A stretch of DNA of 54,677 nucleotides from Candidatus Cloacimonadota bacterium (GTDB lineage Bacteria; Cloacimonadota; Cloacimonadia; Cloacimonadales; TCS61). This document shows, piece after piece, positions 23,856-49,967 of the stretch. Below the pieces are notes generated by a model that saw only the letters and a list, made by a program, of their open reading frames with translations, was not told the DNA's origin and made no database searches. The stretch lies in NCBI GenBank assembly GCA_021736135.1, contig JAIPGO010000015.1, positions 1 through 54,677 on the forward strand, written 5' to 3'. The position numbers and the translations under genes were made by a program. Every line of letters starts with the position of its first letter. Within the stretch, counting starts at the first letter, position 1.

Positions 23856-26800
23856 ATGAGGAGACCACGATTATTTTTTATTTTGCTGCTGGTATGGTTA
23901 CTGGCAGCAGTGAGAGTTTATGGTATAGAAGTTTTATCTCCCATGCCTGAAAACGGCAGTACCGGGAACCCGATAAATTCTGAGATTTCATTTCAAATAG
24001 CAGGAGAGTCTGATACAACTGCCGTTGATATCGAATCAATAGAGATCAATGTTAATGATACGACTTATTACTGGAATTCTGCTGCAGTATCTTATGAATA
24101 TGACGGATTGCTGAGTTACACCTTCTATATCGTCCACCCTTCAACTTATGGCGACCATATTGTGGTAACCGTAAGTGCGTCAGATATTCAAGGGACACCT
24201 ATGTATGATTTTACCTGGGAATTCTGGATACAAACAGATAATATAGCACCACAGGTTCGAAATCCCAATCCAGCAAGGAATGCAACAGAAGTGCCACTGG
24301 ATACCAATATTTTATTTGAGCTCACGGATAATATTTCGGGGGTTCAGTTAAGTACGGTGAGTGTAAATATTCAGACCAGTGAATCAAATATAAATCAGAC
24401 ATTTTCAATAGGACCTAATCTATGGTATATAACAGCTTCAAATGTTCATTATTTTACACTTGATCCTCCCACAAGCTTTACTGTAGGAGATACTGTAAGA
24501 GTAGAGATACATGCCGATGATTACGCAGGTAATACGAGAACTGACATTTACCAGTTTTTCGTGATATCGAGTTATCCATATACTTATGTAGGTTATCATA
24601 GTCCTGATTCAGGCGAACAAGGTGTGAGTGTTAATACTCTGATAGAATTTGACATTTATAATTATCTGCCGGGTGTATATGTTGATTCTACCAGTATATT
24701 AGTGTCCACTACTGCAAACGGGCAGCAGCAGATATATTCTCATAATAATTTTGATATAGAACCGATCTATAATACCCATTCAGTTAACATTGGCTACCAG
24801 GTAACAATTCTTCCCTATCATCCATTTAATTATAATACACTGGTAACGGTATTGATAAATGCCACCGCCACTGATAGTATTCCCATGTCACCATATTCAT
24901 ACAACTTCCGGACGATTAACGACGTCATCCCCCCTTCCATTAGTGCCTGGGATCCTCATGACGTCCAGACTGATGTACCTGTAGATACTGATATTTATTT
25001 CCAGATCAAGGATTTGCGGTCAGGAGTTGATACGACCAGCGTGCAGGTGATGATCGACAGCGTGATGTATGATCCAACGCATGACAGCTTCGTTTACGGG
25101 GACGTGCCAGACGGTTATTCGGTAACGATAACTCCCCCACCATTCGGATCTGAGCAGCTTGTGAATATCAGCATAACCGGAGCGGATAACCTGGGTAATA
25201 CCGTATATAATTCTTACAGTTTTACGACGGAAATAACCAGTGCAGACAGTACTGCGCCATTTTTATGGGATATAAATCCTGATAATGGAGCTGTAAATAT
25301 CCCATTAAGTGGAGAATATATAAGTTTTTATGTATTTGATTCCGATCCCGGAGTGGATATGAGTACTATCAGGCTGAGGAAAAATGGAGTTAACGTAACC
25401 AGTTCAGCAACGATAGTGGCAGATGATGCTTTTGGTTTGTCATCAACAGGCTATCATATTGCTTATCATGTCACATATCCAATTATTGAATCAACCCCGG
25501 GGGTAGTAACCTGGAGCGTACGGGCATCCGATATGATCGGAAACACATATAATCAGGATTTTGATGAGATATTCAGCTTCACCTGCGTGGGCAGCGCGCC
25601 GCCTTATATAAACCTGCCGAATGAATTCATATTTCTGGAAGATCACACACTGATAGTGGATTTTGCTGATTTTGCCGGTGATCCGGATGGTACTTTTCCC
25701 ACTTTAACCTATTTACCTGTCAACAATATAGGTATCAGCATAAATGCGAATATCGTCACCTTCAGTGCACCCTTAAACTGGAATGGGACAGAGGTTGTAA
25801 CTTTTACTGTATCTGACGGATCAGGAGGACAAGCTAGTGATGTGGTCACGGTAACCGTATTGCCGGTTAATGATGCGCCGACAATAGATCTGCCGGATGC
25901 GGGATTCACGTTGGTGGAGGATATACCGCAAATGTTCAATTTTTCAGGCTATGTAAACGATCCGGATGGTGATGCTATGATATTAACTGCTACTGGCCAA
26001 AGCTCCGTGATCATATCGATCAGCGCTATGAATGTGACAATATCGGCGTTACCGGACTGGTTTGGCACGGAACAGGTTACTTTCACAGTATATGATAATG
26101 CGAGCAGACTGAGCGATAGCGAAACAATACCAATCACTTTTACGTCAATCGACGAACCGCCGGTATTAACATTACCAGCCGTTTTTTTGATTGTGGAAGA
26201 CGGTAGTGATACGATAGATTTTGCTCAGTATATATATGAGCCGGAAGGGCAGGAAGTGATCTTGGGAGTAGCCTTGGCTAACCAGGTTGATGTAGATATT
26301 GACGGAACGATAGTAACCTTTACTCCGGCAGCTAACTGGCATGGTGATGATGCTATGAGGTTTTCGGTTGATGACGGTACTTCTATGGTAAATGGGAACA
26401 CAATTGTGAGAGTAGTGAGTGTGAATGATGCTCCGACGATGACTTTGCCGGCATCAGTTAGTGTAAATGAAGATGCGGTTCTGGTGCTTGATTTCAGTAG
26501 TTATGTTAATGACGTTGACGGGGATGATATATTTTTGAGTCATAGTGGTAATGTTAATGTGGGAGTGACGATAGATAGTATGCAGGTAACCTTGACCCCG
26601 ATAGCCAACTGGAATGGAACTGAAACTATCGGAATGATAGCTACAGATCCATATGGGGCAGTGGTTTTTGCGGGATTACATGTCAATGTGATACCGCAAA
26701 ATGACGCTCCGACAATAAATCTGCCCCCTGAAATTACCTTTGTCGAAGATACAGAACTGGACGTGGATCTTAGTAACTATATCGTTGATATTGATGGTGA

Positions 26801-29800: not shown

Positions 29801-32800
29801 AATAATTGTCAATGCCGGTCAATTCAATCATCCACCGGAAATAGTATTACCGGACACCTTAAGCTTTGATGAGGATACAGCAACAGAATTCAATTTCGGC
29901 AGTTATATCAGTGATGAGGATGGTGACGGATTGATCCTGACCGCAGGATATAATGCCAATATGGCAATAGAGATAGTGGATAGCCTGGTGACATTCCGTC
30001 CAGCGTTGAATTATTTTGGTTCGCAGATCATTACTTTCACGGTATATGATACTGGGGGAGGCAGGGCTTCGGCAAGTGATGATGTGCTCGTTACGGTTAA
30101 TCCGGTAAATGACCCGCCAACACTTAATCTCCCTAACAGGTTCACTTTCTCCAATGCCGATATCCTGCTGGTGGATTTTGCTCCTTTTATGTATGATCCT
30201 GATGGCGAGACACTAACGATTACTTATTCAGGTAATGATGAGATCACAGTTAATATTGCCTATCCTTCAGTAATATTTTCCACAACTGATGAATTCAGTG
30301 GTTCGGAAAATATACAATTTACTGTAATGGATGGTAACGGAGATTCTGCCAGTGATATAGTTATTGTGCAGGCGGTCAGCGGCAGTGTGAATACACCGCC
30401 GGAAATTACACTTCCGGCTCAATTCACGACTGCAGAAGATGAAGTATTCGAGGTGGATTTCGAAGCTGAGGGATATATCTCAGATATTGATGAAGATCCC
30501 CTATCGCTGCTTGTTTATGGTAATATTCATCTATATGTTGAGATTGAAGGTACGAATGTGACTTTAACTCCGGAATTAAACTGGAACGGGACAGAAGAAT
30601 TGATCTTTTACGTTTTTGATGACGGCGACGGTAGAGCAACTGCCTGGGATAATGTCAATGTTGTGGTAACCCCGGTAAATGATGCACCGGTTATCAATCT
30701 GCCGGTTAATTTCGGTTTTGTGGAAAATGAGGAACTGAATAACGTGATGATCAGTAATTATATCAGCGATGTTGATGAAGACGAGATAACTTTATCCTAT
30801 ACCGGCAGCGGTAATGTAATAGTAGATATCAATTATTACGGCAATGCCATACTGGCTGATTTCAGTGCTGTTGCAGGATTCACGGGACCTGATACTTTAA
30901 CCTTCACAGCAGATGACGGCGAGTTGACGGGAAGCGATGATATTGTCATTATAGTTGAACCTGGAAACTTTAATCATCCGCCAGTAATGAATCTGCCGGC
31001 AAATGTGAGCATAGCAGAGGACAGCCAGTATGATGCTGATTTCAGCTTATATATCACTGATGCTGATGACGATGACATCGTTTTGACGGTTGGCAGTGTA
31101 TCTAATATGGACATCTTGATCAACGAACTGGCAGTGACGATCATACCGGATGCGAACTGGCATGGCAATTCGAATATTACCTTCACTGCTTATGATACCC
31201 AGACGCGTGCCTCAGCCACGGATGTGATGATTTTTACCGTGCGTCCGCGCAATGATGCACCGGTAATAAATCTACCCGCTCATCTGGAATTTGAAGAAAA
31301 CTCTTCACTCAATGTGAATTTTGGATTATATATGCAGGACGTGGACGGTGATTTCCTGGATATAAGCTGGACGGGTAATGAGAATATTAATATAAGTTCT
31401 GCCGGATATATGGTAACTTTCAGCGAAATAGACTTTACCGGTTCGGAGATGATCACCTTCACAGTAACTGATGACAGCCTGGCAACAGGAACTGATATAG
31501 TGGAAGTGGAAGTCCTGCCGGGACAGTGGAATCATCCTCCGACAATCGAACTGCCGGACAACTTTACTATTTATGAGGATGAAAGCCAGCAGTTCAACTT
31601 TGGACCTTACATTGATGACACTGATGAGACAGACCTGCTTATCATTACGGCAGATTATAATCCGAATATCCTGGTTTCAGTAGCTGATACGCTGGTTACG
31701 CTGATACCTTCCCTGAATTTTAACGGCAGCACGATATTAACTTTCAGAGTAATTGATAATGTCATCGACAGGGAAATAGCCTCCGATGAGGTGGTGATAA
31801 TTGTAAATCCCCGCAATGATGCTCCAACCATAAATCTGCCTGCTGAACTGTCTTTAACTCAGGAAGAAGTTTTATTTGAGAATTTCTCCTATTTTATAAA
31901 TGATGTTGATGGTGATGCACTTCTTTTAACGTGTTCCGGAGAAGAACATCTGGACGTAACTATAACCGGCGGATTCTTTGTAACGATCACGCCGCTTGAT
32001 AATGAATGGTTCGGCGATGAAATTCTCACCTTCACGGTAACAGATGACAGTCTGGCAAGCGCTTCAGATGATATGGTTATTAGAGTATATCAGGGCAGCA
32101 TGAACACACCGCCGGAGATCGATCTGCCAGCTGAAATAACCTTTGCAGAAGATGGAGAATTCTTCGTTGATTTTCTGGCAGCAGGCTATATCAGTGATGC
32201 GGAAAATGATGAACTATTTATCTCTGTGAGTGGGGATCACTTTGTAAACGTGGAAATAGACGGGTCAGAAGTAACTTTCAGTGCTGCAGCAGACTGGTTT
32301 GGCACGGAAGAACTGCTTTTCTATGTATTTGATGATATGGGCAGATCAACTGCCTCAGATAATATTGATATCATAGTAAGCCCGGTTAATGATGCCCCGG
32401 TGGTTAACCTGCCAATCAGCTTTATCTATACCGAGGATGACCTGCCGGTATTGTTTTCGCTGAACAGCTATATTCACGATGTGGACAGCGGAATTCTGGA
32501 ACTCAGCGTGAGCGGAAATGTAAATCTCCAGATAAACGTAGTGCCGGAAACATTCGTAATCAATATCAGCGCACCTGCTTCCTGGGTGGGGACTGAAGTA
32601 GTAACCTTTACGGTTATGGATGACAGCCTGGCGAGTGGCTCTGATCAGGTAAATATTATCATAAATCCCGGACAGGAAAATCATGCTCCAACATTAACCC
32701 TGCCGGATCAGTTCCTTTTGACAGAAGATAATCCCTCGATCATTAATTTTGCAGATTACATAGAAGACCTGGATGGCGATGATATTGTGATCACTACCGG

Positions 32801-35800
32801 ATTATATAATAATCTGGCAATTACGATAAATCAGATCTACGTGACAATAACGCCATCAGCAAACTATTTCGGCAACCAGGTTGTGCAATTCACGATTTAT
32901 GACACTCAGGGTCGAGCTTCGGACACCGATGACGTAACTGTAATTGTGCAAGCCCGTAATGATGCGCCCACGATAAATTTACCACCCAGCTTCACCTTTG
33001 AAGAAAATGCTCAATTGACAGTCAATTTCGGCAGCTATCTCACAGATGTGGATGGTGATATTCTCTCCATAAGCTGGCTGCCGGCGGTAGATATCAATAT
33101 CACTAATTTAGGCTACCAGGTATATTTTGAAGGACCTCCCGGCTGGTATGGCAGCGAAATGGTGTATTTCACAGTTATGGATGACAGCCTGGCAGCAGCT
33201 TCTGATTCCGTAGAAGTAATTGTTGAACAAGGTAACTGGAATCATGAGCCTGTGCTGACCTTGCCACCAAGCTGGACGATGCACGAGGATACCCAGCTTG
33301 TTTTGGATTTTACACCCTGGATATTCGATATTGATGGTGATGAACTGCAAATTTCTGCAGCTTATAATCAATATGTTGGGATAATTATCGAAGGGGCGGC
33401 TGTGACGCTGGTACCTGACGATAATTATTTTGGAACTCAGAACCTGACGTTCCGCCTGATGGATAATGTTGGTCGTCTGCAGGTATCCGATACAGTTACA
33501 TTGAATGTGACGCCGGTTAATGATGCCCCTGTTCTGAACCTGCCAAATTATTTCGGCTTTACTCAATTGGAACAGCTTTATGAAGATTTTAACGAATATA
33601 TGAGTGACATTGATAATGCCGATCCCTGGATAATGCCTGCAGCAGGAAATGAAAATATTGGCGTGAGCATTAATAATAATACAGAAATAGTACATTTCTG
33701 GCTGGAAAATGATGACTGGTATGGCACGGAAGTGATCTATTTCACTATCAGGGATGACAGCCTGGCAACGGCGACAGATTCCGTGGCAGTTACCATATAT
33801 CAGGGTTCAGTGAATAATCCCCCCCAAATAGTTCTGCCTTCGTTCTTAACATTTACTGAAGATGGAGACACTACACTTGATTTTGAGGGTCTGGGTTATA
33901 TCTGGGATGATGACGGTGACAATATGACAATTACCGTTTCAAATAATACAAATGTGACGGTCGAAATTCTTGGTACTTATGTAACTCTTTCCGCTCTGGA
34001 AAACTGGTCAGGCAATGAAACGCTGACCTTCTATGTGATTGATGAGTATAATCAGGCAAATCACGACAACGTGATCGTGCAGGTTACTGCAGTTAATGAT
34101 GCGCCCGTTATTGATCTGCCCGCCAGCGGTTTTTCTTTCCAGGAAAACACAAATTACCGGGTAGCGCTGAATGATTTCTACTCAGACGTTGATGACAGTG
34201 GCGGTTTTACTCTGCAGTATTTCGGCGATGACAATGTTAATGTTGAGATATTACAGGGAGATCCTATCTTTTTCCTGGAATTTACTGCCGAACCGGACTG
34301 GACAGGATCTGATACGCTCAGTTTCACGATTGCCGATGATGATGGGGCATCAGATAGTGATGATGTGGTGATCCATGTTACCGTGGGTAACTGGAATCAT
34401 CCGCCGGTAATAGAACTGCCTGCATCAGTCAGTTTCCTGGAAGATAGTGAATATGTCTTCAATATAAACGACTATATTTCGGATCAGGATGATGACGATA
34501 TCCTCATTTTCCCGCAGGAAAGCATTCACGTCAGCATCAGTCTGATTGATTCCATTGTAACGCTAACACCTGATGAGAACTGGTTTGGGACTGAGACTAT
34601 CACCTTCACAATTTATGACACAGATACGGGCAACCGGCTTTCTGCTACTGATAATATGAACGTGATCGTGGAATCGGTTAATGACCTGCCGCAATTTAAC
34701 CTGCCGGCAGGGATCGAGTTTTATGAAAATGCTTCATATCAGCTTGACCTGAGCCTTTATGCTTTCGATCCTGATGATGCAGTTCTTGATTTTACCTATA
34801 GCGGACAGGATACTATCACTGTTAATAAAATAGGCTATCTCGTTTTTCTGGGAGCACCGGATGACTGGACTGGTGAAGAGATGATCACCTTTACTGCTAT
34901 TGATGACAGCTTGATGACAGCAACCGATAGTGTGCTGGTAAGTGTGGTTCTGGGGAACTGGAATCATGCGCCGGAGATAATATTACCGGATGAAGTCAGT
35001 TTCCTGGAAGATGAAAGCTATATTTTCGATATTGATAATTATATTTCTGACCTGGATGGTGATGATCTATTAATTTTTCCGCAGGAAAGTAATCATATCA
35101 GCATTGCGCTCAGTAGTGGCACGCTGGTAACTTTAACACCGGATGAGAACTGGTCGGGCACTGAAACTATCAGTTTCACAATTTATGATTCAGAAGCGGG
35201 AGCACGTCTTTCTGCTTCAGATAATATGTTAGTAACAGTGGAGCCGGTTAATGATCCGCCCCAGTTTGATCTGCCGGGCGTGGTCGAATTCGTGGAAAGC
35301 ACTTCTATACAGTTAGATCTCAGACAATTTGCTTATGACCCGGATGACCCGGTACTTACATATGGATTCAGTGGAAATGATACGATCATTGTTTCTCAGA
35401 ATGTATTTATGATAACTCTGGAAGCGCCCGATGGCTGGACTGGTGAGGAGATGGTCTCTTTTACCGCTACTGATGAAAGCCTGGTAACTGCTGCCGACAG
35501 CATCCTGGTACGCGTGCTCCTGGGTGAATTTAATCATGCTCCGCAGATAGAACTGCCGGAAGAAGGGTTTACCTTTGCCGAAGACACAATAGTAGAAATA
35601 GACTTTTCGCCCTATATCAGTGATCCTGATGGGGATAATATTGTGATCACCAACACTCCCATAACGCAGGTTGCCATTTTGGTGCTGGGCAATATCGTGA
35701 GATTTACTCCGGCAGCAAATTATAACGGGACAGTGAACATCACTTTCACCGTTATTGATAATATCGATCGACTGACGGCGAGTGATAATGTGAACATCAC

Positions 35801-38800
35801 GGTCACCCCGGTCAATGATCCGCCCACGCTGACCCTGCCATCAGAGATCAGTCTTTCCAGGGATATACCACGCTATGTGAACTTTGCTCCTTTCATCAGC
35901 GATATTGATGCCGGAGATACTCACACTTTATCTTACAGCGGTAATGAGAATATTGCTATTGGAGTAACCGGACTGGTTGTTGACTTTCTTTCTCACTGGG
36001 TAGGAACGGAAGAGATAACTTTCACGGTAATTGATGACAGTCTGGCGGAAGCATCGGAAAATCTGACTATAGTCGTTTATTCCGGTCAGGCAAATAACGA
36101 TCCTGTCATCGATTTGCCGGAGCTTATCTCCTTTAATGAGGATCAAATCTATCCGGTGGATTTCAATGACTTCATCGATGATGATGATGGAGATGAATTA
36201 TCTCTGCTGGTTACAGGAAACAGCTTTATCTCTGCCAATATTGCGCCTAATGAGATCGTAACTTTTTCGGCGATGACTAACTGGTTTGGCAGTGAAAATT
36301 TGACTTTCATCGTTTCCGACGGATATTCTTTTAGTACTGATAATTTGGTAGTGGAAGTATTACCGGTAAATGACCCGCCTACCTTGAGTCTGCCGAATGG
36401 TTTCACTTTTGGCGAGAACACAACTATGGATATTCCCTTCAATCTTTATATGGGTGACGTTGACGGAGATGCCCTTGATATTTCGGTGACGGGAAATGAT
36501 AACGTAAATGTGGAAATAATAGTCACTACCGTACGATTAACCTGTAGCGGCTGGTATGGTTCCGAAATGCTCACTTTCACAGTAGATGATGAAAATGGTC
36601 AAACAGCCAGTGACAGTGTATTGATAACAGTAACGGAAGGAGTGCTGAATCATCCCCCGGTTATTAATCTTCCTCCCAGCTTTGCTGTAGAAGAAGATGA
36701 CGTTCTGCATATTGACATGACGCTTTATGTATCGGATGTTGATGAGGAGCAGCTTTATCTCTGGGTGAACGGTACAGAAAATACTACGGTAAATATTTAT
36801 GGACTTGATGTTTATGTTATACCAGCTGATAACTGGTTCGGCACTGAAACGCTTACCTTTACAGTTATTGATAATGTTGTGAGAGAAACGGATTCTGCCA
36901 CAACCAATATTATTGTTACTCCGGTTAATGATGATCCTGTAATATCACTGCCTCAGGCAGGTTTCAGTTTTGATGAGAATCATACTCTTTTACTGGATTT
37001 CAACCAGTACGTGGACGATGTGGATAATGATGCCCTGAGCCTCGTGTGCACTGGTAATACGAATGTCACGGTTCAAATCAACAGTTTAAGCGTAAATTTA
37101 GGGGCTGTCCAGTGGTGGAGTGGAACGGAAACTCTTACTTTTACGGTAGATGACGGTAATGGCGGAGATGCATTTGATGAAATATTAGTGACAGTTAATT
37201 ATATTAATGATGCACCCTATGTCTTGCAGGTAATAAATGATTTCACAATGCCTGAAGATGGCATTGATACTTCGATTAATCTGCACAATGTATTCTCCGA
37301 TCATGATCTGGATTTTGGAGATGAGCTGACGTATAGCGTTTATGGTGATCTGCATCTGCAGGTAACGATAGCTGAAGGTGCAGTGACCATTGCCCCGGAT
37401 GCTAACTGGTTCGGTCAGGAAATGCTGACTTTCCGGGCTACTGATTCTGAAGGTCTGTTCGTAGAAGAAGCCGTAACTGTATTCGTGAACAGCATTAATG
37501 ATAATCCGGTTGTTATCGTTGCTCCATCGCTCACGGCACAAGCCGATGAAAGCGGCTTTGCCCAGGTAATGCTGGATGCTAATGGTTCTTATGATATTGA
37601 CGGTGATATCGTAAGTGTACTCTGGACCTGGAATAGCGGTTCGGCTAACGGAATGATCACTCAGCAGGCTTTTGAACCAGGATATTATGCTATATTGGTC
37701 ACTGCCACAGATGATGGTGGAGGTATTGGTACTGCCACTACATATCTTTCTGTAGCAAGTTATACGAACCAGATACCAGTAGCCCTGGATGATTATTATC
37801 AGGTTTATGAAGAATCCGAACTGGTTGTATTCCCGGTTAATGGGGTTCTGCATAACGACTATGATCCCGATAGCAGTCCTTTACCTTTAGAGGCAGTTTT
37901 GATTACTCAACCCACGTCGGGAACGATGATCCAGTTCAATCCCGCCGGTTCGTTCATTTACCTGGCAGAGAATATCACCAATCATGATGTAACTTTCACT
38001 TACCAGGCTTATGACGGGCAGGCATATTCACTGATCAGAACCGTGCATATCACGGTACATGAGATCGTGCTGGATGATGCGGTAATCTCTGTAAGCAGTT
38101 TTGATCCTGGTGGCGCAACCGATATTGATATCAGCGTGCCCATTCTTACCTCAGAATTGATAGCTGACTGGGATGTACGCAATTTTGCCTTTGATCTGCA
38201 GTTTACCAGTGGTGTTTTGAATTATACCGGATTTAATCTGGACGATACTATCGTGGATACAAATGCCGTAATTCAGATCACGGAAAGCCGAGGTATATTA
38301 CACTGCACTTATACCGGTGATGAAATAGTAACCGGTGAAGGTGCACTGCTTAATATAGAATACCACTACTATATCGGATTTTCACCATTTGAGATATCGA
38401 ATTTCACTTATAATCAGACGGCTATTGGTAATACCATCAAAGGCGCAGTAAATAACGCCTATCCGGAACTGGCATTTCCAATTGTGATTACCGGTCTTAT
38501 GGAAGATTTTGAGCCTTTCACTCTTGATCTCAATGATCATTTTACTGATGACAATAATGACGTGCTTACCTATAGCATAGATTTTGATGAGGATGAAATA
38601 ACCGCAGTTATTACCGGTAGTATTCTGGAGCTAAGCTCCGTAAGCAACTGGTTTGACACCACAACGCTGACCGTTACTGCCACTGATAATTATACGTTTA
38701 CTCAGCCTGTCATTTATCCTTTTGATATTGTAATAACCGGGGAAAATGATGCCCCTGCTATAGTTCTGCCGGATTCTTTCTCTTTTGCCGAGGATACGGA

Positions 38801-41345
38801 ACTGGTTGTTAATATGTTTGAATATGTTTCTGATCCTGATTATGATGATCTGATTCTAAGCTGGAGCGGGAACACGAATATCGGTGTTTCTGCAGCAGGA
38901 ATGAATTTGACCTTTACAGCGGCTCAGGACTGGTACGGCACGGAGCTGATCACTATTCAGGCAGACGATTCGGATGGAGGCAGGCTTATTGCCATAGACA
39001 GTCTAAATGTAATAGTAACGCCGGTAAATGACCCGCCGGTATTTGGTACTCTGCCACCATCTATAGCTTTTGATGAGGATGAAACAGAAACCGTAGATTT
39101 TATCCTGGAAGGTTACGTGAGCGATCCGGAGAATAATTCCATAATACTTTCGATATCTAATAACGTAAATATTATTGCCACTTTTGAAGGTGCCATAGCA
39201 CATCTTTCCGCACCGGAAAACTGGAACGGCAATGAAACAGTTACCTTCACAGCCCGGGATGATCTGGATACACTTTCCGTTTCGGCAGATATACAGATCA
39301 TTGTTCATCAGGTAAATGACGTTCCCGTTATTGAACTGCCACGTGATTTTCTGATTGCACAAAACTCCCTGGCAGAGGATAATACGATGAATTTTGCTGA
39401 TTCCCTCTGGATTTATGATGTTGATGGTAATATCCTGGAACTGACAGTAAATGACGGTGAGTTTATCGATATAGTAATAGTGGGTTCAATCGTTACATTT
39501 GAACCCCAACCCAACTGGATCGGTCTTGAGCGAAGGACTTTTACGGTAAATGACAATCAGGGAAGAGCCACGGCATCAGATGCCGTAAATATAATAGTCT
39601 TTCAGACGTCAAGCAACCAGCCACCATTAATAGAGCTACCGGTTCAGGGATTCTCCTATCCGGAAGACGGACAGCTGACAGTGAATTTCAGCGATTATAT
39701 AACAGATCCTGAAGGTGATGAAATCATATACCTGGATGTTAACGGCAGTAATAATATTACTGCTCTCATTCAAGGCATGGATGTGATTTTTGGTACTGCT
39801 CCTGATTTCTTCGGAATTGATGAAGTTGTTGTTACGGCGATTGACTCCCAGAGTGGTTCAGCAAGTGTTGACACATTGATCATAACCGTCACTCCCGTGA
39901 ATGATCCACCACAGATTGATCTGCCTGATAATATCGTCCTGGTGGGCAATACAACCAGGGTCATCAATTTTGAACAATATCTACGGGATATTGATAATGA
40001 CGTTAATGATCTGGAGCTTAGCGCTGAGGGTAATGAACAGATAAATATAGAAATTTTCAATACAGTTGTCAGTTTCACTGCTCCGGCGCAATGGGAAGGT
40101 GAAGAAACGGTGTATTTTTCTGTGATTGATGCAGGTGCAGTTCCTGCCCAGGATAGTCTCATAGTAATTGTGGAGCAGGAGCATATCAATCATCCGCCCG
40201 TAATTTCGCTACCCGCCAGTTTCACTTATAATGAAGATGAAGAACTGGAATTGGATTTCTCTTCTTATATATCGGACGTTGATGATGATGCCCTGCTGCT
40301 GACAGCCAGTGGCAACCAGAATATAATTATCACCATTACCGGTTACAATGTATTATTGCGTGCCAGGGAGAACTGGAATGGTTCGGAAATAGTGATTTTC
40401 ACGGTTTATGACACCGGCACGAGGGCTTTTGACAGTGAAGACGTGCAGATAAACGTTACCCCCGTAAATGATGCACCGGTTTTTGACCCGATTTATGACA
40501 TCGTGATGGAACGCGATCAGGTGCTGGAAATAGATTTTGGCAATTACGTATCTGATCTGGAGGATAACGTTTTCCATCTGACAATATCGGCTGGCGAAGG
40601 CGTTCTGATCGAACAAAATACCACAGTATTCACTTTCACACCTGAGGATGACTGTCCTGCTACGCAGAACCTCACGCTGACTGCCACGGAAAACGTTTCG
40701 GATTTATTCACGGACATTATGTTCGGGCTTTTTGTTATGGAACCGGCAGTTGACTTGAGTGCCATTGATGACGCCGTGAAAGGCGGGATGTTTACTTTCA
40801 AGGAAAAATCGGGTGAACATACCATAGATTTCTCACAGTTCCTGAATACTGATTACGATAATCTCGTACTCACTTCGGCAGTAAACAATGTGATCACTGA
40901 TTCTCTGGATATCAGTATCACCGGATATACAATTAAATTTGAACCCAAAAGCAACTGGATCGGTGATATCTTTATCCCCTTCTCTATCACTTATCTGCAA
41001 AACCGCGCCCGTCGTGATTTTGAGATCAAGGTAAGCGTACGCGCTGAAAGAAACGGGGAATATGTGGAACCGCGTCCGCATCTGGTTACCTGGCAATGGG
41101 ATCATTGTGACATAATAATTACCACAGGTGAACCGATGGCTGGTGAAACCTGTAAGATACTGAACCGCCAGGGTAAGCTCATCAGGAAGCTGCCCATTGA
41201 TGATGATATCGGAAGTGACGGCAGATTTAAGGCAACGTGGTATAAAGATAATGAAGACGGCGATCCGGTTAATGGAGGTTTATACCTTTACCAGGTCGAT
41301 ATTGATGGCAAGCTCTATCAAGGCTCCATAATCATAGCGAGGTAA
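23856..41345 (+). CDS. Giant tandem-repeat surface adhesin (5829 residues)
   Basis: A secreted protein of roughly 0.6 MDa (GGAG seven bases before the ATG; signal peptide 1-24). Residues about 27-575 are four or five bacterial Ig-like domains. From 579 I count about 50 cadherin/tandem-95-type repeats of about 95 residues, each starting N-D-A-P-x-I-N-L-P or N-H-P-P-x-I-x-L-P, with E-D ... V-D-F-S-x-Y, D-x-D-G-D (likely calcium ligands), N-W-x-G-x-E-x-I-T-F-T-V and a closing V-x-V. Over long stretches N-D-A-P and N-H-P-P modules alternate, giving a super-repeat of about 190 residues. An island near 4547-4860 holds a PKD-like domain, a VCBS-like domain and a cohesin-like domain. The end (about 5745-5829; G-E-T-C-K-I-L-N-R-Q-G-K-L-I-R-K-L ... 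N-G-G-L-Y-L-Y-Q-V) is a FlgD-like sorting module. Five bases separate it from the PorV-like gene. Confidence 0.92.
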   Translation: MRRPRLFFILLLVWLLAAVRVYGIEVLSPMPENGSTGNPINSEISFQIAGESDTTAVDIESIEINVNDTTYYWNSAAVSYEYDGLLSYTFYIVHPSTYGDHIVVTVSASDIQGTPMYDFTWEFWIQTDNIAPQVRNPNPARNATEVPLDTNILFELTDNISGVQLSTVSVNIQTSESNINQTFSIGPNLWYITASNVHYFTLDPPTSFTVGDTVRVEIHADDYAGNTRTDIYQFFVISSYPYTYVGYHSPDSGEQGVSVNTLIEFDIYNYLPGVYVDSTSILVSTTANGQQQIYSHNNFDIEPIYNTHSVNIGYQVTILPYHPFNYNTLVTVLINATATDSIPMSPYSYNFRTINDVIPPSISAWDPHDVQTDVPVDTDIYFQIKDLRSGVDTTSVQVMIDSVMYDPTHDSFVYGDVPDGYSVTITPPPFGSEQLVNISITGADNLGNTVYNSYSFTTEITSADSTAPFLWDINPDNGAVNIPLSGEYISFYVFDSDPGVDMSTIRLRKNGVNVTSSATIVADDAFGLSSTGYHIAYHVTYPIIESTPGVVTWSVRASDMIGNTYNQDFDEIFSFTCVGSAPPYINLPNEFIFLEDHTLIVDFADFAGDPDGTFPTLTYLPVNNIGISINANIVTFSAPLNWNGTEVVTFTVSDGSGGQASDVVTVTVLPVNDAPTIDLPDAGFTLVEDIPQMFNFSGYVNDPDGDAMILTATGQSSVIISISAMNVTISALPDWFGTEQVTFTVYDNASRLSDSETIPITFTSIDEPPVLTLPAVFLIVEDGSDTIDFAQYIYEPEGQEVILGVALANQVDVDIDGTIVTFTPAANWHGDDAMRFSVDDGTSMVNGNTIVRVVSVNDAPTMTLPASVSVNEDAVLVLDFSSYVNDVDGDDIFLSHSGNVNVGVTIDSMQVTLTPIANWNGTETIGMIATDPYGAVVFAGLHVNVIPQNDAPTINLPPEITFVEDTELDVDLSNYIVDIDGDDLLINITGNDNISYQLTGFNLHLSAPADWVGMEQFFFNVSDTQIDVDGSVQVRVTSDNDAPVVNLPASINFDEDGLLQINFTDSLYITDIDGDAITILPSGNNQIRIQVVEDVVIFTAEENWNGSEDITFLADDGHGGLSSGIMTVIVNPVNDAPTINLPGGFTYPEETTLEVNMGQFLNDVDLYDENSIEELTLSCTGDENVTVDINDMQVTFGSLPDWHGFEDITFTVSDFEGAEASDIVRITVFISQNNHIPELYLVADQSFYEDGELIVDFVGDSLVVDIDGDELLISVLGNTHILAEEDGALVTFTADEDWYGSEVISFFADDQNGGIVQGQLEITVLPVDDVPVFTLPDFFDFQEGTNRVVNLNDYVIEVDDDDLSMEFTGNSNIVIQDVGNLVVNMLVMGAWTGQETVFFTIDDGTTAVMDSVQVIVTQGTWNHAPQFIGLPASFTFPEDEQLQIDLEPYIFDLDADDEFIITVGNNSNVLYQISGLIVTLSALPNWYGSETLHFMVYDTQASGGRAHADAYPNIIVTPVNDAPTLNLPPYMTFIEDGELIVDFSSYTNDVDGGTPVLNSPGGENIFISILGSNVTFTATPDWFGSEYIMFTATDGGGLEATDSLNIIVTEGMWNNPPVITGLPDSVEFEEDGQYVLDFNPYVTDEDGDEWLVTFGYNQYINPTVVDNVVSFRSVSNWFGQTTIGFTIYELRSRVTVPGEIDVFVSPVNDAPVINLPTEITMGENEDPYLPFTGYLSDIDSTILTLSVTGNDTISIVIIAGNVVHFTPPANWHGTETVTFTVTDDSLASSSDVVDIVVEQGNFNHAPVIILPAEISTDEDTPLMVDFSAYVSDVDGDQLILVSDNSENMAIVIDGLEVTFTPVLNWHGYEDIDFTVYDTSGSRLSATDEVRVRVLTVNDAPELDLPELFSYDENATLVVNFSYYLFDADGDFLTITWAGNSQVHISNNAYQVTLSAAPDWSGSEIVHFTVTDGQQATATDSVEIIVNAGQFNHPPEIVLPDTLSFDEDTATEFNFGSYISDEDGDGLILTAGYNANMAIEIVDSLVTFRPALNYFGSQIITFTVYDTGGGRASASDDVLVTVNPVNDPPTLNLPNRFTFSNADILLVDFAPFMYDPDGETLTITYSGNDEITVNIAYPSVIFSTTDEFSGSENIQFTVMDGNGDSASDIVIVQAVSGSVNTPPEITLPAQFTTAEDEVFEVDFEAEGYISDIDEDPLSLLVYGNIHLYVEIEGTNVTLTPELNWNGTEELIFYVFDDGDGRATAWDNVNVVVTPVNDAPVINLPVNFGFVENEELNNVMISNYISDVDEDEITLSYTGSGNVIVDINYYGNAILADFSAVAGFTGPDTLTFTADDGELTGSDDIVIIVEPGNFNHPPVMNLPANVSIAEDSQYDADFSLYITDADDDDIVLTVGSVSNMDILINELAVTIIPDANWHGNSNITFTAYDTQTRASATDVMIFTVRPRNDAPVINLPAHLEFEENSSLNVNFGLYMQDVDGDFLDISWTGNENINISSAGYMVTFSEIDFTGSEMITFTVTDDSLATGTDIVEVEVLPGQWNHPPTIELPDNFTIYEDESQQFNFGPYIDDTDETDLLIITADYNPNILVSVADTLVTLIPSLNFNGSTILTFRVIDNVIDREIASDEVVIIVNPRNDAPTINLPAELSLTQEEVLFENFSYFINDVDGDALLLTCSGEEHLDVTITGGFFVTITPLDNEWFGDEILTFTVTDDSLASASDDMVIRVYQGSMNTPPEIDLPAEITFAEDGEFFVDFLAAGYISDAENDELFISVSGDHFVNVEIDGSEVTFSAAADWFGTEELLFYVFDDMGRSTASDNIDIIVSPVNDAPVVNLPISFIYTEDDLPVLFSLNSYIHDVDSGILELSVSGNVNLQINVVPETFVINISAPASWVGTEVVTFTVMDDSLASGSDQVNIIINPGQENHAPTLTLPDQFLLTEDNPSIINFADYIEDLDGDDIVITTGLYNNLAITINQIYVTITPSANYFGNQVVQFTIYDTQGRASDTDDVTVIVQARNDAPTINLPPSFTFEENAQLTVNFGSYLTDVDGDILSISWLPAVDINITNLGYQVYFEGPPGWYGSEMVYFTVMDDSLAAASDSVEVIVEQGNWNHEPVLTLPPSWTMHEDTQLVLDFTPWIFDIDGDELQISAAYNQYVGIIIEGAAVTLVPDDNYFGTQNLTFRLMDNVGRLQVSDTVTLNVTPVNDAPVLNLPNYFGFTQLEQLYEDFNEYMSDIDNADPWIMPAAGNENIGVSINNNTEIVHFWLENDDWYGTEVIYFTIRDDSLATATDSVAVTIYQGSVNNPPQIVLPSFLTFTEDGDTTLDFEGLGYIWDDDGDNMTITVSNNTNVTVEILGTYVTLSALENWSGNETLTFYVIDEYNQANHDNVIVQVTAVNDAPVIDLPASGFSFQENTNYRVALNDFYSDVDDSGGFTLQYFGDDNVNVEILQGDPIFFLEFTAEPDWTGSDTLSFTIADDDGASDSDDVVIHVTVGNWNHPPVIELPASVSFLEDSEYVFNINDYISDQDDDDILIFPQESIHVSISLIDSIVTLTPDENWFGTETITFTIYDTDTGNRLSATDNMNVIVESVNDLPQFNLPAGIEFYENASYQLDLSLYAFDPDDAVLDFTYSGQDTITVNKIGYLVFLGAPDDWTGEEMITFTAIDDSLMTATDSVLVSVVLGNWNHAPEIILPDEVSFLEDESYIFDIDNYISDLDGDDLLIFPQESNHISIALSSGTLVTLTPDENWSGTETISFTIYDSEAGARLSASDNMLVTVEPVNDPPQFDLPGVVEFVESTSIQLDLRQFAYDPDDPVLTYGFSGNDTIIVSQNVFMITLEAPDGWTGEEMVSFTATDESLVTAADSILVRVLLGEFNHAPQIELPEEGFTFAEDTIVEIDFSPYISDPDGDNIVITNTPITQVAILVLGNIVRFTPAANYNGTVNITFTVIDNIDRLTASDNVNITVTPVNDPPTLTLPSEISLSRDIPRYVNFAPFISDIDAGDTHTLSYSGNENIAIGVTGLVVDFLSHWVGTEEITFTVIDDSLAEASENLTIVVYSGQANNDPVIDLPELISFNEDQIYPVDFNDFIDDDDGDELSLLVTGNSFISANIAPNEIVTFSAMTNWFGSENLTFIVSDGYSFSTDNLVVEVLPVNDPPTLSLPNGFTFGENTTMDIPFNLYMGDVDGDALDISVTGNDNVNVEIIVTTVRLTCSGWYGSEMLTFTVDDENGQTASDSVLITVTEGVLNHPPVINLPPSFAVEEDDVLHIDMTLYVSDVDEEQLYLWVNGTENTTVNIYGLDVYVIPADNWFGTETLTFTVIDNVVRETDSATTNIIVTPVNDDPVISLPQAGFSFDENHTLLLDFNQYVDDVDNDALSLVCTGNTNVTVQINSLSVNLGAVQWWSGTETLTFTVDDGNGGDAFDEILVTVNYINDAPYVLQVINDFTMPEDGIDTSINLHNVFSDHDLDFGDELTYSVYGDLHLQVTIAEGAVTIAPDANWFGQEMLTFRATDSEGLFVEEAVTVFVNSINDNPVVIVAPSLTAQADESGFAQVMLDANGSYDIDGDIVSVLWTWNSGSANGMITQQAFEPGYYAILVTATDDGGGIGTATTYLSVASYTNQIPVALDDYYQVYEESELVVFPVNGVLHNDYDPDSSPLPLEAVLITQPTSGTMIQFNPAGSFIYLAENITNHDVTFTYQAYDGQAYSLIRTVHITVHEIVLDDAVISVSSFDPGGATDIDISVPILTSELIADWDVRNFAFDLQFTSGVLNYTGFNLDDTIVDTNAVIQITESRGILHCTYTGDEIVTGEGALLNIEYHYYIGFSPFEISNFTYNQTAIGNTIKGAVNNAYPELAFPIVITGLMEDFEPFTLDLNDHFTDDNNDVLTYSIDFDEDEITAVITGSILELSSVSNWFDTTTLTVTATDNYTFTQPVIYPFDIVITGENDAPAIVLPDSFSFAEDTELVVNMFEYVSDPDYDDLILSWSGNTNIGVSAAGMNLTFTAAQDWYGTELITIQADDSDGGRLIAIDSLNVIVTPVNDPPVFGTLPPSIAFDEDETETVDFILEGYVSDPENNSIILSISNNVNIIATFEGAIAHLSAPENWNGNETVTFTARDDLDTLSVSADIQIIVHQVNDVPVIELPRDFLIAQNSLAEDNTMNFADSLWIYDVDGNILELTVNDGEFIDIVIVGSIVTFEPQPNWIGLERRTFTVNDNQGRATASDAVNIIVFQTSSNQPPLIELPVQGFSYPEDGQLTVNFSDYITDPEGDEIIYLDVNGSNNITALIQGMDVIFGTAPDFFGIDEVVVTAIDSQSGSASVDTLIITVTPVNDPPQIDLPDNIVLVGNTTRVINFEQYLRDIDNDVNDLELSAEGNEQINIEIFNTVVSFTAPAQWEGEETVYFSVIDAGAVPAQDSLIVIVEQEHINHPPVISLPASFTYNEDEELELDFSSYISDVDDDALLLTASGNQNIIITITGYNVLLRARENWNGSEIVIFTVYDTGTRAFDSEDVQINVTPVNDAPVFDPIYDIVMERDQVLEIDFGNYVSDLEDNVFHLTISAGEGVLIEQNTTVFTFTPEDDCPATQNLTLTATENVSDLFTDIMFGLFVMEPAVDLSAIDDAVKGGMFTFKEKSGEHTIDFSQFLNTDYDNLVLTSAVNNVITDSLDISITGYTIKFEPKSNWIGDIFIPFSITYLQNRARRDFEIKVSVRAERNGEYVEPRPHLVTWQWDHCDIIITTGEPMAGETCKILNRQGKLIRKLPIDDDIGSDGRFKATWYKDNEDGDPVNGGLYLYQVDIDGKLYQGSIIIAR

Positions 41346-41350
41346 GAAAG

Positions 41351-42913
41351 ATGAAAAATACAATATTAAAGATGAAAAATGATATGATGACGACTCACGA
41401 CTCACGACTCACGACTCACGGCATTCCTCTCACGAGTCACGTCTTCCATCTCACTTCTCACGTCTCACTTCTCACTATGATTTTCTTCCTGCTTTTCTCC
41501 ACCAGCCTCTTCGCTTATGATTTCACGAATGGCGGTGTGCGTAACGCTGCCATGGGCGGCACTGGTATTGCTTCGACCAATGATGCTTCGGCAGCTCTCT
41601 GGAATCCGGCTTTTCTGGCTGAGATAAGTTATTACCAGTTTATCTCCGATTCCCGGAAATATTCCGTGCAGCTTGATAATGATGAGCTTTCCGATAATTC
41701 GGCAAGTTTTGCCATTCCTTTAAAAAGTATAGGCACATTAGCTTTGGCGGGTGGCGTTACGGGCAGCAATATATATGATGAAACACGCTTTGGGGTTTCT
41801 TTCGGGTCGGCAGCCTTATCAAAGGTCTTCTTTGGAAGGGATGATAAGCTGCTTATCGGTGCCAGTCTGCAGAGTTACATGACCGGTTTTTCAGATCCTG
41901 ATTATTATACTCCCGACGGAGAGATTACCGGATTTGATGACGGTAAAAGCGCTTTTGATGCCGACCTGGGTATAGTGTATAAACCGGCACCATTCCTGCA
42001 ACTGGGACTAACGGTAAACAGGCTGATGTCTGCCAATATGGCATTGGAAGATGGCGGTTCAGATAAATTACCTCGTAAGATCGGTATGGGTGCAAATCTC
42101 AATTTCGGAGCTTTGAATATCGCAGCTGATTACGCGATGGAGCAGGGTGAAAACATTACGGAAACGGGTTTTGCTGTGGGTGCTGAATATCAGGTGGCAG
42201 ATAATCTTTATCTGAGAACCGGATTAAATAATCTTAATCTAACAGCCGGTGTAGGTATAGACGTCTATCACCGCGACTGGCTGGACGAATTTGCCTCTAA
42301 TGTTGATGGTATGGCGGATGTAACAACGCTTAATATAGGGGTTGATTATGCCTTCCAGACGCCTTTCCTGGATAATGAAGCAGAAACGGAATACGGTAAT
42401 CACTATTTTGGAGTCACACTTTCCTATGGTCGCAGAACGGTGGGTGACAATGAATTGGCAAAGATGTTCCCCGATCAGTATTCCTCAGGCTTAGACCTTG
42501 ATTCTCTTTATTTTGCCCGGGTAAAAGCAGATACGGTTTATAAGGAAGTTACCCTTTATGACACATTGCGCGTAATCGAACGCGTGGCAGATGAAGACGT
42601 TGTTAATGAAAGATTGTCTCAGGAATCGGAACGCATAAAACTGGAACAGGTCGGTGACATCAATAAAGCTTCCGTATTTCTCATCCGTTCGCTGGAATAT
42701 TTCTATGCAGAGCAATATACTCTGGCGATAGATATGTGCGAAAGAGCTATTGCCACGGCACCCAATCTATCACTTTCCTACCTGAGGCTGGCTTCCATCT
42801 ATTATCGTCTGAATGAGCGGCAGCAAGCGCTGGAATATCTCGATCAAGGCTTGCGGATTGACCCCACAAACGAAGAACTGCTTCGTCTGCGCCAGACTAT
42901 AGCAAATCAATAG
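41351..42913 (+). CDS. PorV/PorQ-like outer-membrane protein with C-terminal TPRs
   Basis: 520 residues as drawn. The mature domain begins Y-D-F-T-N-G-G-V-R-N-A-A-M-G-G-T-G-I-A-S-T-N-D-A-S-A-A-L-W-N-P-A, the signature of the PorV/PorQ (UPF0164-like) barrels that in type IX secretion bind C-terminal sorting domains. About 330 residues of barrel strands follow, then a linker (near 375-420), and two TPRs at 440-520 (Y-F-Y-A-E-Q-Y-T-L-A-I-D-M-C-E-R-A; L-R-L-A-S-I-Y-Y-R-L-N-E-R-Q-Q-A-L-E-Y-L-D). The start is uncertain: ATG 41351 has a purine-rich site but creates a 42-residue leader encoded by heptamer repeats, whereas ATG 41477 starts directly at a signal peptide (M-I-F-F-L-L-F-S-T-S-L-F-A). It sits between the giant adhesin and the motor genes, so it may anchor the adhesin. 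Confidence 0.8.
   Translation: MKNTILKMKNDMMTTHDSRLTTHGIPLTSHVFHLTSHVSLLTMIFFLLFSTSLFAYDFTNGGVRNAAMGGTGIASTNDASAALWNPAFLAEISYYQFISDSRKYSVQLDNDELSDNSASFAIPLKSIGTLALAGGVTGSNIYDETRFGVSFGSAALSKVFFGRDDKLLIGASLQSYMTGFSDPDYYTPDGEITGFDDGKSAFDADLGIVYKPAPFLQLGLTVNRLMSANMALEDGGSDKLPRKIGMGANLNFGALNIAADYAMEQGENITETGFAVGAEYQVADNLYLRTGLNNLNLTAGVGIDVYHRDWLDEFASNVDGMADVTTLNIGVDYAFQTPFLDNEAETEYGNHYFGVTLSYGRRTVGDNELAKMFPDQYSSGLDLDSLYFARVKADTVYKEVTLYDTLRVIERVADEDVVNERLSQESERIKLEQVGDINKASVFLIRSLEYFYAEQYTLAIDMCERAIATAPNLSLSYLRLASIYYRLNERQQALEYLDQGLRIDPTNEELLRLRQTIANQ
41392..41419 (+). repeat. Heptamer microsatellite (GACTCAC x4) at the start of the PorV-like gene
   Basis: Four perfect GACTCAC units at 41392-41419, followed to 41476 by degenerate relatives (CTCACGAGTCACG; CTCACTTCTCACG). 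The tract lies between the two candidate start codons; a change of one 7-base unit would shift the frame from ATG 41351. Confidence 0.7.
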
Positions 42914-42941: not shown

Positions 42942-44339
42942 ATGAAGAAAATTCTAACCTTTCTTTCAATTCTGATCCTGGCGGTTTTCGCCTGGGCACA
43001 GAGTACTGATATCGAAACAGTTATGGAAATCCAGGCGGAACGCGAGCTAGCCAACTGGATCGAAAGTATGCTTTATCCCATCGTAGGTGATAACGTGGCA
43101 ATAGTCGATATGACGCTGCGTTATCCTTCAGAGCAATTGAAGGTTTTCGGTTCCACTCTGGATAAAGAACGCAGTCTGCCGGGTTTGCCGGTTGCCAAAT
43201 CAAGTGGTGTAATGCCCAGTCAGATAGCTGGTGAAGAAACTTATCCCACCATTGTGGTTAAAAAAGTAGTCACCATTTATCTGAGTAAGAATACTACAGC
43301 AGAAATGGAAGATTTTATCCGTCAAAATGTCATAAGCTGGGTGAATATTAGTGATGCCAAAGGCGATAAACTCGAAGTGAAAAGTGTTCTTGACCTCAAA
43401 GCTGAAGAGGTGGTTGACGAAAACGGTACACCCATAATTCAAACTCAGGATTACCGGAACTATATACTGCTGATAGGTGCTATTCTGTTACTGATCATAA
43501 TCATTTTTGTCATCGTGTTTTCCTCACGCATGGGAAGACTGGCAAAATCTATGAAAGAGATCACAATTCCCGGATTAGACAACCTTTTACGTCCGCCTGC
43601 CACCCGCGAAGCAGCGCGTAAAAAAGAAAGCACATCCAAAGAACCGGTTTCAGTACGCATTTTACCCCAGGATGAGACCAGAAAAGAGGCCGTCAGTTTC
43701 AAATTTGTGGAAGAACTCTCACCTGCCGGCTGCGGGGCATTACTGGCGAAAGAAAAGCCGGAAGATGCCGCTTATGTGCTATCCCAGCTTTCGCCGGAAT
43801 ACGTGAGCAGCTTTTTTGCCAGATTCGAGGGTAATATTGATATCATTCTGAAAGCTGTAATAAAAGGCAAACAGCTCACCCGCAGTGAAATTTCAATGCT
43901 TTATGACAGACTGCGTAAGCTGCAAAGCCAGATCAGTGAAACGGAGAGTCTCACCTTTGATAATCATCAGTTCATTACATCACTGGTGAACCATCTGCCA
44001 GCCGAAAGCTCGGAAAAATTCTTTAATAAAGTAAATAACCTCGATGCCGGATTTGCCAGTCTGCTGCGCAAAGATGTCTTCTTTCTCGAAGACCTTGCCC
44101 GTCTCGATACAAGCCAGATCGAACTCATCATTCGGCAGATTGACCGAGATATCCTCATCAATTATATCTCCTTTTCTCCTCCGCTCATCAAAGAAAAATT
44201 CTTTAACAGCATGACTACCCGTAACCGGGATATTTTTGCTGATGAACTGGAAAACTTAGTCCCTCTTAAAGAAGAGGAAAAGTCAAATATCCAAAACCTG
44301 ATCCTGGCAGAAATTCGTCAGATCCTGGCGCTGGTTTAG
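42942..44339 (+). CDS. FliF-FliG fusion: membrane rotor protein of a non-flagellar motor
   Basis: 465 residues; ATG 42942 has AGGA seven bases upstream (an ATG six bases earlier is too close). Signal-like helix 1-20. Periplasmic residues 30-152 resemble the FliF RBM3 region: R-E-L-A-N-W-I-E-S-M-L-Y-P-I-V-G-D-N-V, then V-V-K-K-V-V-T-I-Y-L-S and G-D-K-L-E-V-K-S-V. Membrane helix 173-195. Residues 253-350 resemble FliG middle domains (L-S-P-A-G-C-G-A-L-L-A-K-E-K-P-E-D-A-A-Y-V-L-S-Q-L-S-P-E). Residues 376-465 align well with FliG-C: V-F-F-L-E-D-L-A-R-L-D ... K-E-K-F-F-N-S-M-T-T-R. Of the E. coli torque residues, R281, D288, D289 and R297 correspond to Arg427, Asp434, Glu435 and Lys443; K264 is not kept. 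In flagella FliF and FliG are separate MS-ring and C-ring proteins. MotA follows after eight bases. Confidence 0.8.
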   Translation: MKKILTFLSILILAVFAWAQSTDIETVMEIQAERELANWIESMLYPIVGDNVAIVDMTLRYPSEQLKVFGSTLDKERSLPGLPVAKSSGVMPSQIAGEETYPTIVVKKVVTIYLSKNTTAEMEDFIRQNVISWVNISDAKGDKLEVKSVLDLKAEEVVDENGTPIIQTQDYRNYILLIGAILLLIIIIFVIVFSSRMGRLAKSMKEITIPGLDNLLRPPATREAARKKESTSKEPVSVRILPQDETRKEAVSFKFVEELSPAGCGALLAKEKPEDAAYVLSQLSPEYVSSFFARFEGNIDIILKAVIKGKQLTRSEISMLYDRLRKLQSQISETESLTFDNHQFITSLVNHLPAESSEKFFNKVNNLDAGFASLLRKDVFFLEDLARLDTSQIELIIRQIDRDILINYISFSPPLIKEKFFNSMTTRNRDIFADELENLVPLKEEEKSNIQNLILAEIRQILALV

Positions 44340-44347
44340 GAGGATAA

Positions 44348-45082
44348 ATGAGAATATCAGTAGTTTTCGGTTATCTCCTGGGTCTTGCTGTTGTCCTTAT
44401 TACCATCTTAACCAAGGAAGACACAAGTTACTTTCTTGATCCCGGGGCTCTGGCAATCACACTTGGTGGAACCTTCGCTGCCCTGCTTATCCATTTCTCT
44501 CCGCGAGCCTTCAGCATTGCCTGGATATCATTTATCAAGCTGTTTACGGAAAAACAGTACTCCCGAAAATATATCATTGATCAACTGGTCCTGCTTAGCA
44601 GAGATGCCAAACGTAATGGCGTGCGCTCCATTCTCTCCAGCAGCTTTGTGAAGGAAAACCCTTTTCTGGAAAAAGGATTAATGCTCGTTGCCGATGGTGA
44701 AAACCCGGAAGAAATTGAAGAATCCCTTATCCAGGAAAGCATTACTGTTACTGAAGAATACAGCCTCGGTGAACAGGTTCTCAAATTCGGTGGTAGTGTT
44801 TCTCCGCAGTTTGGTATGATGGGAACTATTATTGGTCTTATTGCCATGCTGAACCGCGTGGAAGATCCTGCTTCCATACCCGCTGCCATGGGACTGGCGC
44901 TGGTTACAACCCTTTACGGACTGCTAATGTCTGCCCTGTTTTTTAAACCTACTGCCGGCAAGATCAGAATTAAGAATCAGATCGATACTAAATCACGGGA
45001 AATTATGGTGGAAGGCATACTCTCCATTGAGAAGGGAGACAGTTCACAGATCACCCGTGAAAAACTCTCCATATATTTCTAA
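44348..45082 (+). CDS. motA: MotA-family stator subunit
   Basis: A 244-residue inner-membrane protein with four helices (about 5-22, 32-50, 147-170, 178-198), start preceded by AGGAGG-like bases. Helix 3-4 carries the family signature S-P-Q-F-G-M-M-G-T-I-I-G-L-I-A-M-L ... M-G-L-A-L-V-T-T-L-Y-G-L-L-M-S-A-L-F-F-K-P-T-A-G-K. The cytosolic loop has the basic segment A-K-R-N-G-V-R-S-I and acidic residues (E-N-P-E-E-I-E-E-S) where flagellar MotA contacts FliG. With MotB it would form a 5:2 ion-driven rotor. Closer to MotA than to TolQ/ExbB in length and loop. It stands between the FliF-FliG fusion and MotB, with no flagellar genes in the window. Confidence 0.88.
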   Translation: MRISVVFGYLLGLAVVLITILTKEDTSYFLDPGALAITLGGTFAALLIHFSPRAFSIAWISFIKLFTEKQYSRKYIIDQLVLLSRDAKRNGVRSILSSSFVKENPFLEKGLMLVADGENPEEIEESLIQESITVTEEYSLGEQVLKFGGSVSPQFGMMGTIIGLIAMLNRVEDPASIPAAMGLALVTTLYGLLMSALFFKPTAGKIRIKNQIDTKSREIMVEGILSIEKGDSSQITREKLSIYF

Positions 45083-45091
45083 AGGTGTACT

Positions 45092-45718
45092 ATGGCAAAT
45101 AGTAAGCTAAAACTGGAAAAACTGCGCCGGCAAATGAATGACCTGGAGGAAGACCTTGATGATTCCGTGAACATGCAGGATATGATGACGCCTTATGGTG
45201 ACCTTATGACCCTGCTGCTTGTGTTCTTCGTTTTCTTCTTTATTATCAGCGATATCCAGAAGAATCAGCGTATCATTGAACAGAATGCCAGAGTTACTGA
45301 AACTCAGGCATTGATTGATTCGCTGCTTGATCTCAATGAAACAGTTATTACTATACCGGGCGAAATATTATTCGGCTCAGGCAGTGCAGATCTGCGCTGG
45401 CAAAGCCTGCGTTCACTTGCCCAGGTCGCGGAAAATATCAAACGCGAAATCGGAAGTGAAGACGGCTGGCAGATTCGTATTGAAGGGCATACTGATAACG
45501 TACCCATCATCAACGGTAAATATGAATCAAACTGGGATCTTTCTATGGCAAGAGCACTCAGTATCGTGAAATTCTTCGTGGAAAACGACTTTTTCCCACC
45601 AGAGCAACTGCAGGCAATGGGCTATGGTGAATTCAAACCAGTCGCCCCCAATGACACCGACGAAAATAAAACCAAAAACCGTCGTGTGGAAATCAGACTA
45701 ACCCGTAAATATCAGTAA
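45092..45718 (+). CDS. motB: MotB-family stator subunit with OmpA-like domain
   Basis: A 208-residue protein. A short cytosolic, possibly coiled-coil N-terminus (1-30) is followed by one membrane helix (about 33-53), T-P-Y-G-D-L-M-T-L-L-L-V-F-F-V-F-F-F, in which Asp37 takes the place of the ion-carrying aspartate of MotB (Asp32 in E. coli). After a linker of only about 45 residues comes the peptidoglycan-binding OmpA-like domain (about 85-205) with E-G-H-T-D-N-V-P-I, S-M-A-R-A-L-S-I-V and N-R-R-V-E-I-R-L. The plug region is short compared with E. coli MotB (308 residues). Last gene of the operon, nine bases after MotA, followed by an intrinsic terminator at 45777. Confidence 0.9.
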   Translation: MANSKLKLEKLRRQMNDLEEDLDDSVNMQDMMTPYGDLMTLLLVFFVFFFIISDIQKNQRIIEQNARVTETQALIDSLLDLNETVITIPGEILFGSGSADLRWQSLRSLAQVAENIKREIGSEDGWQIRIEGHTDNVPIINGKYESNWDLSMARALSIVKFFVENDFFPPEQLQAMGYGEFKPVAPNDTDENKTKNRRVEIRLTRKYQ

Positions 45719-49958: not shown

Positions 49959-49967
49959 TTCTCTCTC

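Follow-up and report, generated by a model that had tools for sequence, protein, structure and literature searches.

Several described systems can be set beside the locus reported here. In Agl-Glt gliding of Myxococcus, a MotAB-like stator works outside a flagellum, and we know of no FliF/FliG rotor in that system. A 2025 stator survey places this stator in the generic, not the flagellar, clade, and mentions FliG once, in a flagellar context (PMC12505986). In Bacteroidota, PorP-like carriers hold type-B adhesins, SprB of F. johnsoniae for example sitting on its neighbour SprF (PMC9143113), and it is by way of the periplasmic tail that SprF is set in motion (PMC12635249); a 2026 gliding review leaves FliG and FliF unmentioned (PMC13104615). 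Lastly, single-chain FliF-FliG fusions have been engineered in Salmonella and Vibrio, and these form rings (PMC6079021, PMC11481574).

The locus shares with the flagellar motor an RBM3 domain, FliG middle and C-terminal domains with the torque arginine and acidic pair, and flagellar-type MotA and MotB. It differs in that FliF and FliG are a single gene lacking RBM1, RBM2 and the FliG N domain, FliM and FliN are absent, the EHPQ motif is lost, no export gate was detected, and the motor genes are linked to an outer-membrane carrier and an adhesin. As in Bacteroidota gliding (SprB/SprF, GldLM, T9SS), there are a giant repeat adhesin that ends in a type-B-like sorting domain and, beside it, a PorP/SprF-like barrel with a putative periplasmic tail, and SprA is found in the genome; in contrast, the motor of the cluster is MotAB with a FliG-bearing rotor instead of GldLM, the tail consists of a TPR domain, and no track protein was identified. 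Unlike the engineered fusions, which are laboratory constructs of flagellar proteins, the fusion here occurs in nature, is shorter and does not belong to a flagellum. As for the type III injectisome, its FlhA/SctV gate and YscJ ring were not found in the host genome. No earlier description of the system was found in the open-access literature (preprints not covered). As far as we can tell, the parts belong to known families and their combination has not been described so far, the novelty being at the level of the machine.

Layout of the cluster and anatomy of its motor proteins

The window, that is the whole stretch of 54,677 nucleotides analysed, belongs to a Candidatus Cloacimonadota genome of 4.14 Mb in 148 contigs, with an estimated completeness of 98%. 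The first-pass annotation had recognised a motor trio at 42942-45718, in which one ORF joining RBM3, a membrane helix and the FliG middle and C-terminal domains is followed at once by MotA and MotB. A check of the ORFs confirmed the three frames, with gaps of 8 bases between fusion and MotA and 9 bases between MotA and MotB. The complete system reaches further, from 23856 to 45718. It is a five-gene cluster on the plus strand (adhesin, barrel-TPR protein, FliF-FliG fusion, MotA, MotB) whose downstream half is the motor trio; the cargo, i.e. the adhesin and its TPR-tailed carrier, had not been described.

Counted from its second ATG, the fused rotor protein has 465 aa (42942..44339); it was identified by HMM, PDB profile matches and fold. 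A further in-frame ATG at 42936 is the alternative start of the ORF. The order of its parts is a signal peptide, a periplasmic domain (residues 27-150, 43020..43391), a membrane-spanning helix (model helix residues 168-206, 43443..43559), a long low-confidence linker, a FliG middle-domain region (43740..43922; HMM, PDB matches and alignment) and a FliG C-terminal torque domain (PF01706, 44031..44324). RBM3 is the only RBM present.

The FliG part was recognised both by sequence and by fold, in agreement with the FliG-C similarity first proposed. FliG_C matched at 1.6e-15, the NCBIfam model TIGR00207 FliG at 8.3e-18 over residues 247-462, and solved FliG structures in the PDB at E values as low as 6.6e-15; FliG_M gave 0.024, which is under the family cut-off. 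In AlphaFold models of moderate confidence (mean pLDDT 71-73), the FliG-C part fitted 1qc7 with a TMt of 0.84 and FliG in the MotAB-FliG structure 8ucs with a TMt of 0.80, and the full-length model fitted both FliG and FliF structures.

For the periplasmic domain, the model showed the topology helix-strand-(collar-like loop)-strand-helix-strand, followed by the membrane helix. Foldseek gave 18 matches with E<=0.001, every one of them to FliF S-ring/RBM3 structures (best 3.8e-6). At the sequence level, FliF chains were the top three PDB profile matches, with E values of 0.06-0.27, and hhalign against the FliF of the phylum itself aligned 30 columns only (E 2.7e-4, probability 42%); it is therefore the modelled fold on which the RBM3 assignment mainly depends. 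We conclude that the domain is of the FliF RBM3 type, weakly by sequence and clearly by its predicted fold.

MotA (44348..45082) matched MotA_ExbB at 2.4e-19, the NCBIfam MotP model at 3.1e-47 and the C. jejuni MotA structure at 3.4e-37. MotB (45092..45718; HMM, structure match and alignment) matched OmpA at 1.2e-17 and MotB_plug at 4.8e-8. Its membrane helix contains the ion-carrying Asp37 (PYGDLM), and its OmpA-like domain is of the peptidoglycan-binding type. The channel aspartate is kept in 15 of 16 MotB sequences. Judged by these matches, MotA and MotB are a flagellar-type stator. The window MotA has L/S/S at the sites that correspond to the acidic E96/E97/E99 of PomA. MotA has kept its basic positions but not the acidic ones, which the window copy lacks and relatives have only in part, for which reason the electrostatic match between MotA and FliG is incomplete.

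Torque surface, FliM-binding site and flagellar markers

When the window FliG-C was aligned with E. coli and Salmonella FliG, R281 corresponded to Arg427 and D288/D289 to Asp434/Glu435 (torque helix, 44217..44252), a basic residue was kept at R297 (Lys443), and serine was found at K264, which bears out the charges at four of five torque positions noted at first. Each of the 20 aligned fusions retains the torque arginine and the acidic pair; Lys443 is private to the window among them and not conserved. The FliM-binding motif EHPQ, which reads EKPE in the window, is present in none of the 20 fusions, versus 7 out of 7 Cloacimonadota flagellar FliGs examined. Retained torque residues together with loss of EHPQ are what one would expect of fusions that still contact a stator and have no FliM switch to bind any more. 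In a tree of the FliG middle and C-terminal domains, the fusions split from all flagellar FliG with a support of 1.0; long branches limit the tree as a guide to how the fusion arose.

Absence of a flagellum was tested by family searches for FlhA, FliM/FliN, YscJ/FliF and FliG_C, all with positive flagellated controls. In the host genome, no match was obtained for FlhA (PF00771), for the FliM/FliN C-domain (PF01052, FliMN_C) or for YscJ_FliF, and a single FliG_C was present. With the export gate missing, genes for rod, hook and filament are unlikely to be there. The statement that export apparatus, FliM and FliN are missing near the operon thus extends, for FlhA and FliM/FliN, to a genome 98% complete, and no sign was found, by FlhA, FliMN or YscJ/FliF, of the complete flagellar set elsewhere that the first-pass annotation had named as fatal to its proposal. 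That annotation had also suggested a survey of relatives. Among 125 Cloacimonadota genomes, the fusion was found in 24 and FlhA in 12, and both in only one (G046, 81% complete), which leaves 23 of the 24 fusion genomes without FlhA. An overlap of one genome is no significant shortfall against chance (Fisher p 0.46), so that the argument is one for independence of the fusion from the flagellum, and not for mutual exclusion. In G046 itself, MotB (L046:216-797) has an asparagine in place of the channel aspartate (PFANLM), a change which by its sequence would be expected to block ion flow.

These counts bear on whether the trio could be part of an ordinary flagellum or injectisome whose remaining genes escaped notice because the assembly is incomplete or the sequences have diverged. 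The division of the genome into 148 contigs and the company of FlhA in G046 speak for such an oversight. We rejected it, as the export gate, FliMN and YscJ/FliF are unmatched at 98% completeness, FlhA is absent from 23 of the 24 fusion genomes, and a rotor with neither RBM1/RBM2, FliG N domain nor FliM-binding motif does not suit it; we hold it to be very improbable. Marker absence and FliG-C similarity together support the idea of a rotor/stator pair that would turn outside a flagellum.

Beyond the phylum, one sequence was used in a scan of contigs. It retrieved the Cloacimonadota MAG JAIPGP010000060.1, whose fusion protein is 65% identical, and otherwise only a match of the FliG part in Selenomonas. 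Limitation of the fusion to Cloacimonadota is not proven by this one-sequence scan.

The adhesin, its carrier and their linkage to the motor

Upstream of the fusion, a giant secreted adhesin-like protein of 5829 aa is encoded at 23856..41345. It consists of a Big_5 domain, many cadherin-like/Big_9 repeats of about 95 residues, and a C-terminal FlgD_ig/CHU_C-like domain. In relatives, the giant repeat protein has about 770 to 3200 aa, some copies being truncated by contig ends. CHU_C, a T9SS sorting domain, scored above cut-off in the adhesins of L051, L052, L042 and L109; the window domain taken alone scored only 0.12, and it aligns with the domains of these relatives. Matches to the type-B model TIGR04131 in adhesin C-termini were all below cut-off. 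By homology, the C-terminal domain would be a type-B-like T9SS sorting domain. At 46038-51878 of the window, the minus strand encodes two more large secreted proteins; these end in FlgD_ig/Por_Secre_tail-type sorting domains and are likely T9SS cargo.

The carrier (41351..42913) is an outer-membrane beta-barrel of the PorV/PorP/SprF (FadL-like) kind, followed by a DTV/DTL-rich linker and a TPR domain (TPR_1, 9e-10) that is predicted to be periplasmic. The barrel scored higher as PorV family (NCBIfam PorV_fam, 1.8e-10) than as PorP family (4e-6), and scored as PorQ family as well; among its relatives, PorP_SprF (PF11751) gave 3.4e-5 in L046, above cut-off, and 1.8e-4 in L040. Nine relatives all keep one cysteine of the TPR domain (A5 Cys439, window 41351-42913). 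A shared cysteine is likewise found in most of the adhesin C-terminal domains, and both may be compared with the disulfide-linked SprF tail of Bacteroidota. In L113:4056-5987 (G116), tandem repeats some 34 residues long (DTVFVEKVRVDTL...) enlarge the barrel-TPR linker, as though carriers differed in how far they extend into the periplasm.

Linkage of these genes to the motor holds in three arrangements. Adhesin and barrel lie upstream of the motor genes and in line with them in the window, L037-L048 and L109-L114; they are divergent from them in L051 and downstream in L052. Barrel+TPR and fusion were found together in 20 genomes, the fusion only in 4 and barrel+TPR only in 2 (Fisher 3e-17, kinship ignored), and all six exceptions are genomes estimated to be less than 90% complete.

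Full flagella do occur in other Cloacimonadota, and flagellar remnants are found in many non-motile species (PMC12199754), so the motor could be the decaying relic of a lost flagellum, with no function or a residual one. We rejected this on the grounds of open, full-length frames in several families, conserved motifs, linkage kept in three arrangements, and the fully supported fusion branch apart from all flagellar FliG; the company of an adhesin and a carrier is not what one would look for in a remnant, and we give this reading hardly any credit.

In a different role, the motor would supply energy for exporting this one adhesin by the type IX translocon, or for displaying it, by taking adhesin and carrier off SprA, and would not move it thereafter. 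The type-B-like sorting domain on the adhesin and the adjoining carrier would fit, as would the result for GldM, part of the usual T9SS motor: PF12081 matched above cut-off in none of the 125 Cloacimonadota genomes, although a divergent GldM could have escaped detection. A weak match in G006 was discarded as an unrelated protein, by eye HD-domain nuclease-like. SprA, on the other hand, is present in the host genome and in 71 out of 71 high-quality Cloacimonadota genomes, most of them devoid of the fusion. T9SS export does not therefore generally need the fusion, and the module comes on top of the T9SS without being one of its general components. We regard an export function as unlikely, though worth keeping in mind.

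Some genomes contain a second, divergent FliF-FliG fusion (L050, 2895-4469; L054, 8592-10133; L053; L056), and both types were found in G022, G023 and G013. In L050 and L054, the fusion of this paralogous motor is followed by MotA, MotB and then a secreted TPR protein of 376 aa, with no adhesin or barrel adjoining, which fits the TPR as usual coupling partner. In one subclade (L039, L040, L042, L043, L044 and L110), an MscS-type mechanosensitive channel gene comes after MotB. Both arrangements, the channel gene and the paralogous motor with a TPR partner alone, would also suit an envelope or sensing device that responds to adhesin load or membrane tension, or that acts on the cell wall, and leaves the adhesin unmoved. 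The core cluster is without a signalling domain, and the torque residues and channel Asp have been kept despite strong divergence, which points to torque. We think a sensing or cell-wall function improbable.

A proposed motor for a surface adhesin

The reading we prefer is that a flagellar-type rotary motor drives a surface adhesin, as a gliding-like machine and not to turn a filament; we put its probability at about one half. In the machine that we infer, MotA5MotB2 stators would be held to the peptidoglycan by the OmpA domain of MotB and, powered by ions, would push on the FliG-C domains of a ring formed in the inner membrane by the FliF-FliG fusion. The RBM3/collar face of this ring would engage the TPR tail of the carrier in the periplasm. 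The giant type-B-like adhesin, exported by the T9SS of the genome, would be held on the surface by its PorP/SprF/PorV-like carrier, and rotation of the ring would tug or move carrier and adhesin, resulting in gliding-like motility or active attachment. In favour of this reading are the identity of the domains, the torque residues and channel Asp that have been kept, the missing EHPQ motif and flagellar markers, the linkage and co-occurrence of motor, carrier and adhesin, the CHU_C domains of relatives, SprA in the host genome, the TPR partner of the paralogous motor, and the precedent of SprB and SprF. That a MotAB-turned FliF-FliG ring driving a T9SS-exported adhesin through a TPR carrier makes up a further class of surface-motility machine is a more tentative proposal, to which we give somewhat less than an even chance.

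Several points weigh against the adhesin-driving motor: the L/S/S of MotA at the PomA acidic sites, the unconserved Lys443, and the CHU_C score of 0.12 in the window. Moreover, on-the-spot rotation of a single ring is not enough to account for movement of the adhesin over long distances, and no track protein was found.

If true, the adhesin-driving motor would mean that a flagellar rotor is able to function in the absence of switch, export gate, rod and filament. The question raised in PMC12199754, what half a motor is good for, would then have a concrete answer. The system would offer a natural minimal motor, of one rotor protein and two stator proteins, for torque studies. It would also connect the flagellar motor with T9SS-linked adhesin movement, two subjects that have so far been treated as separate.
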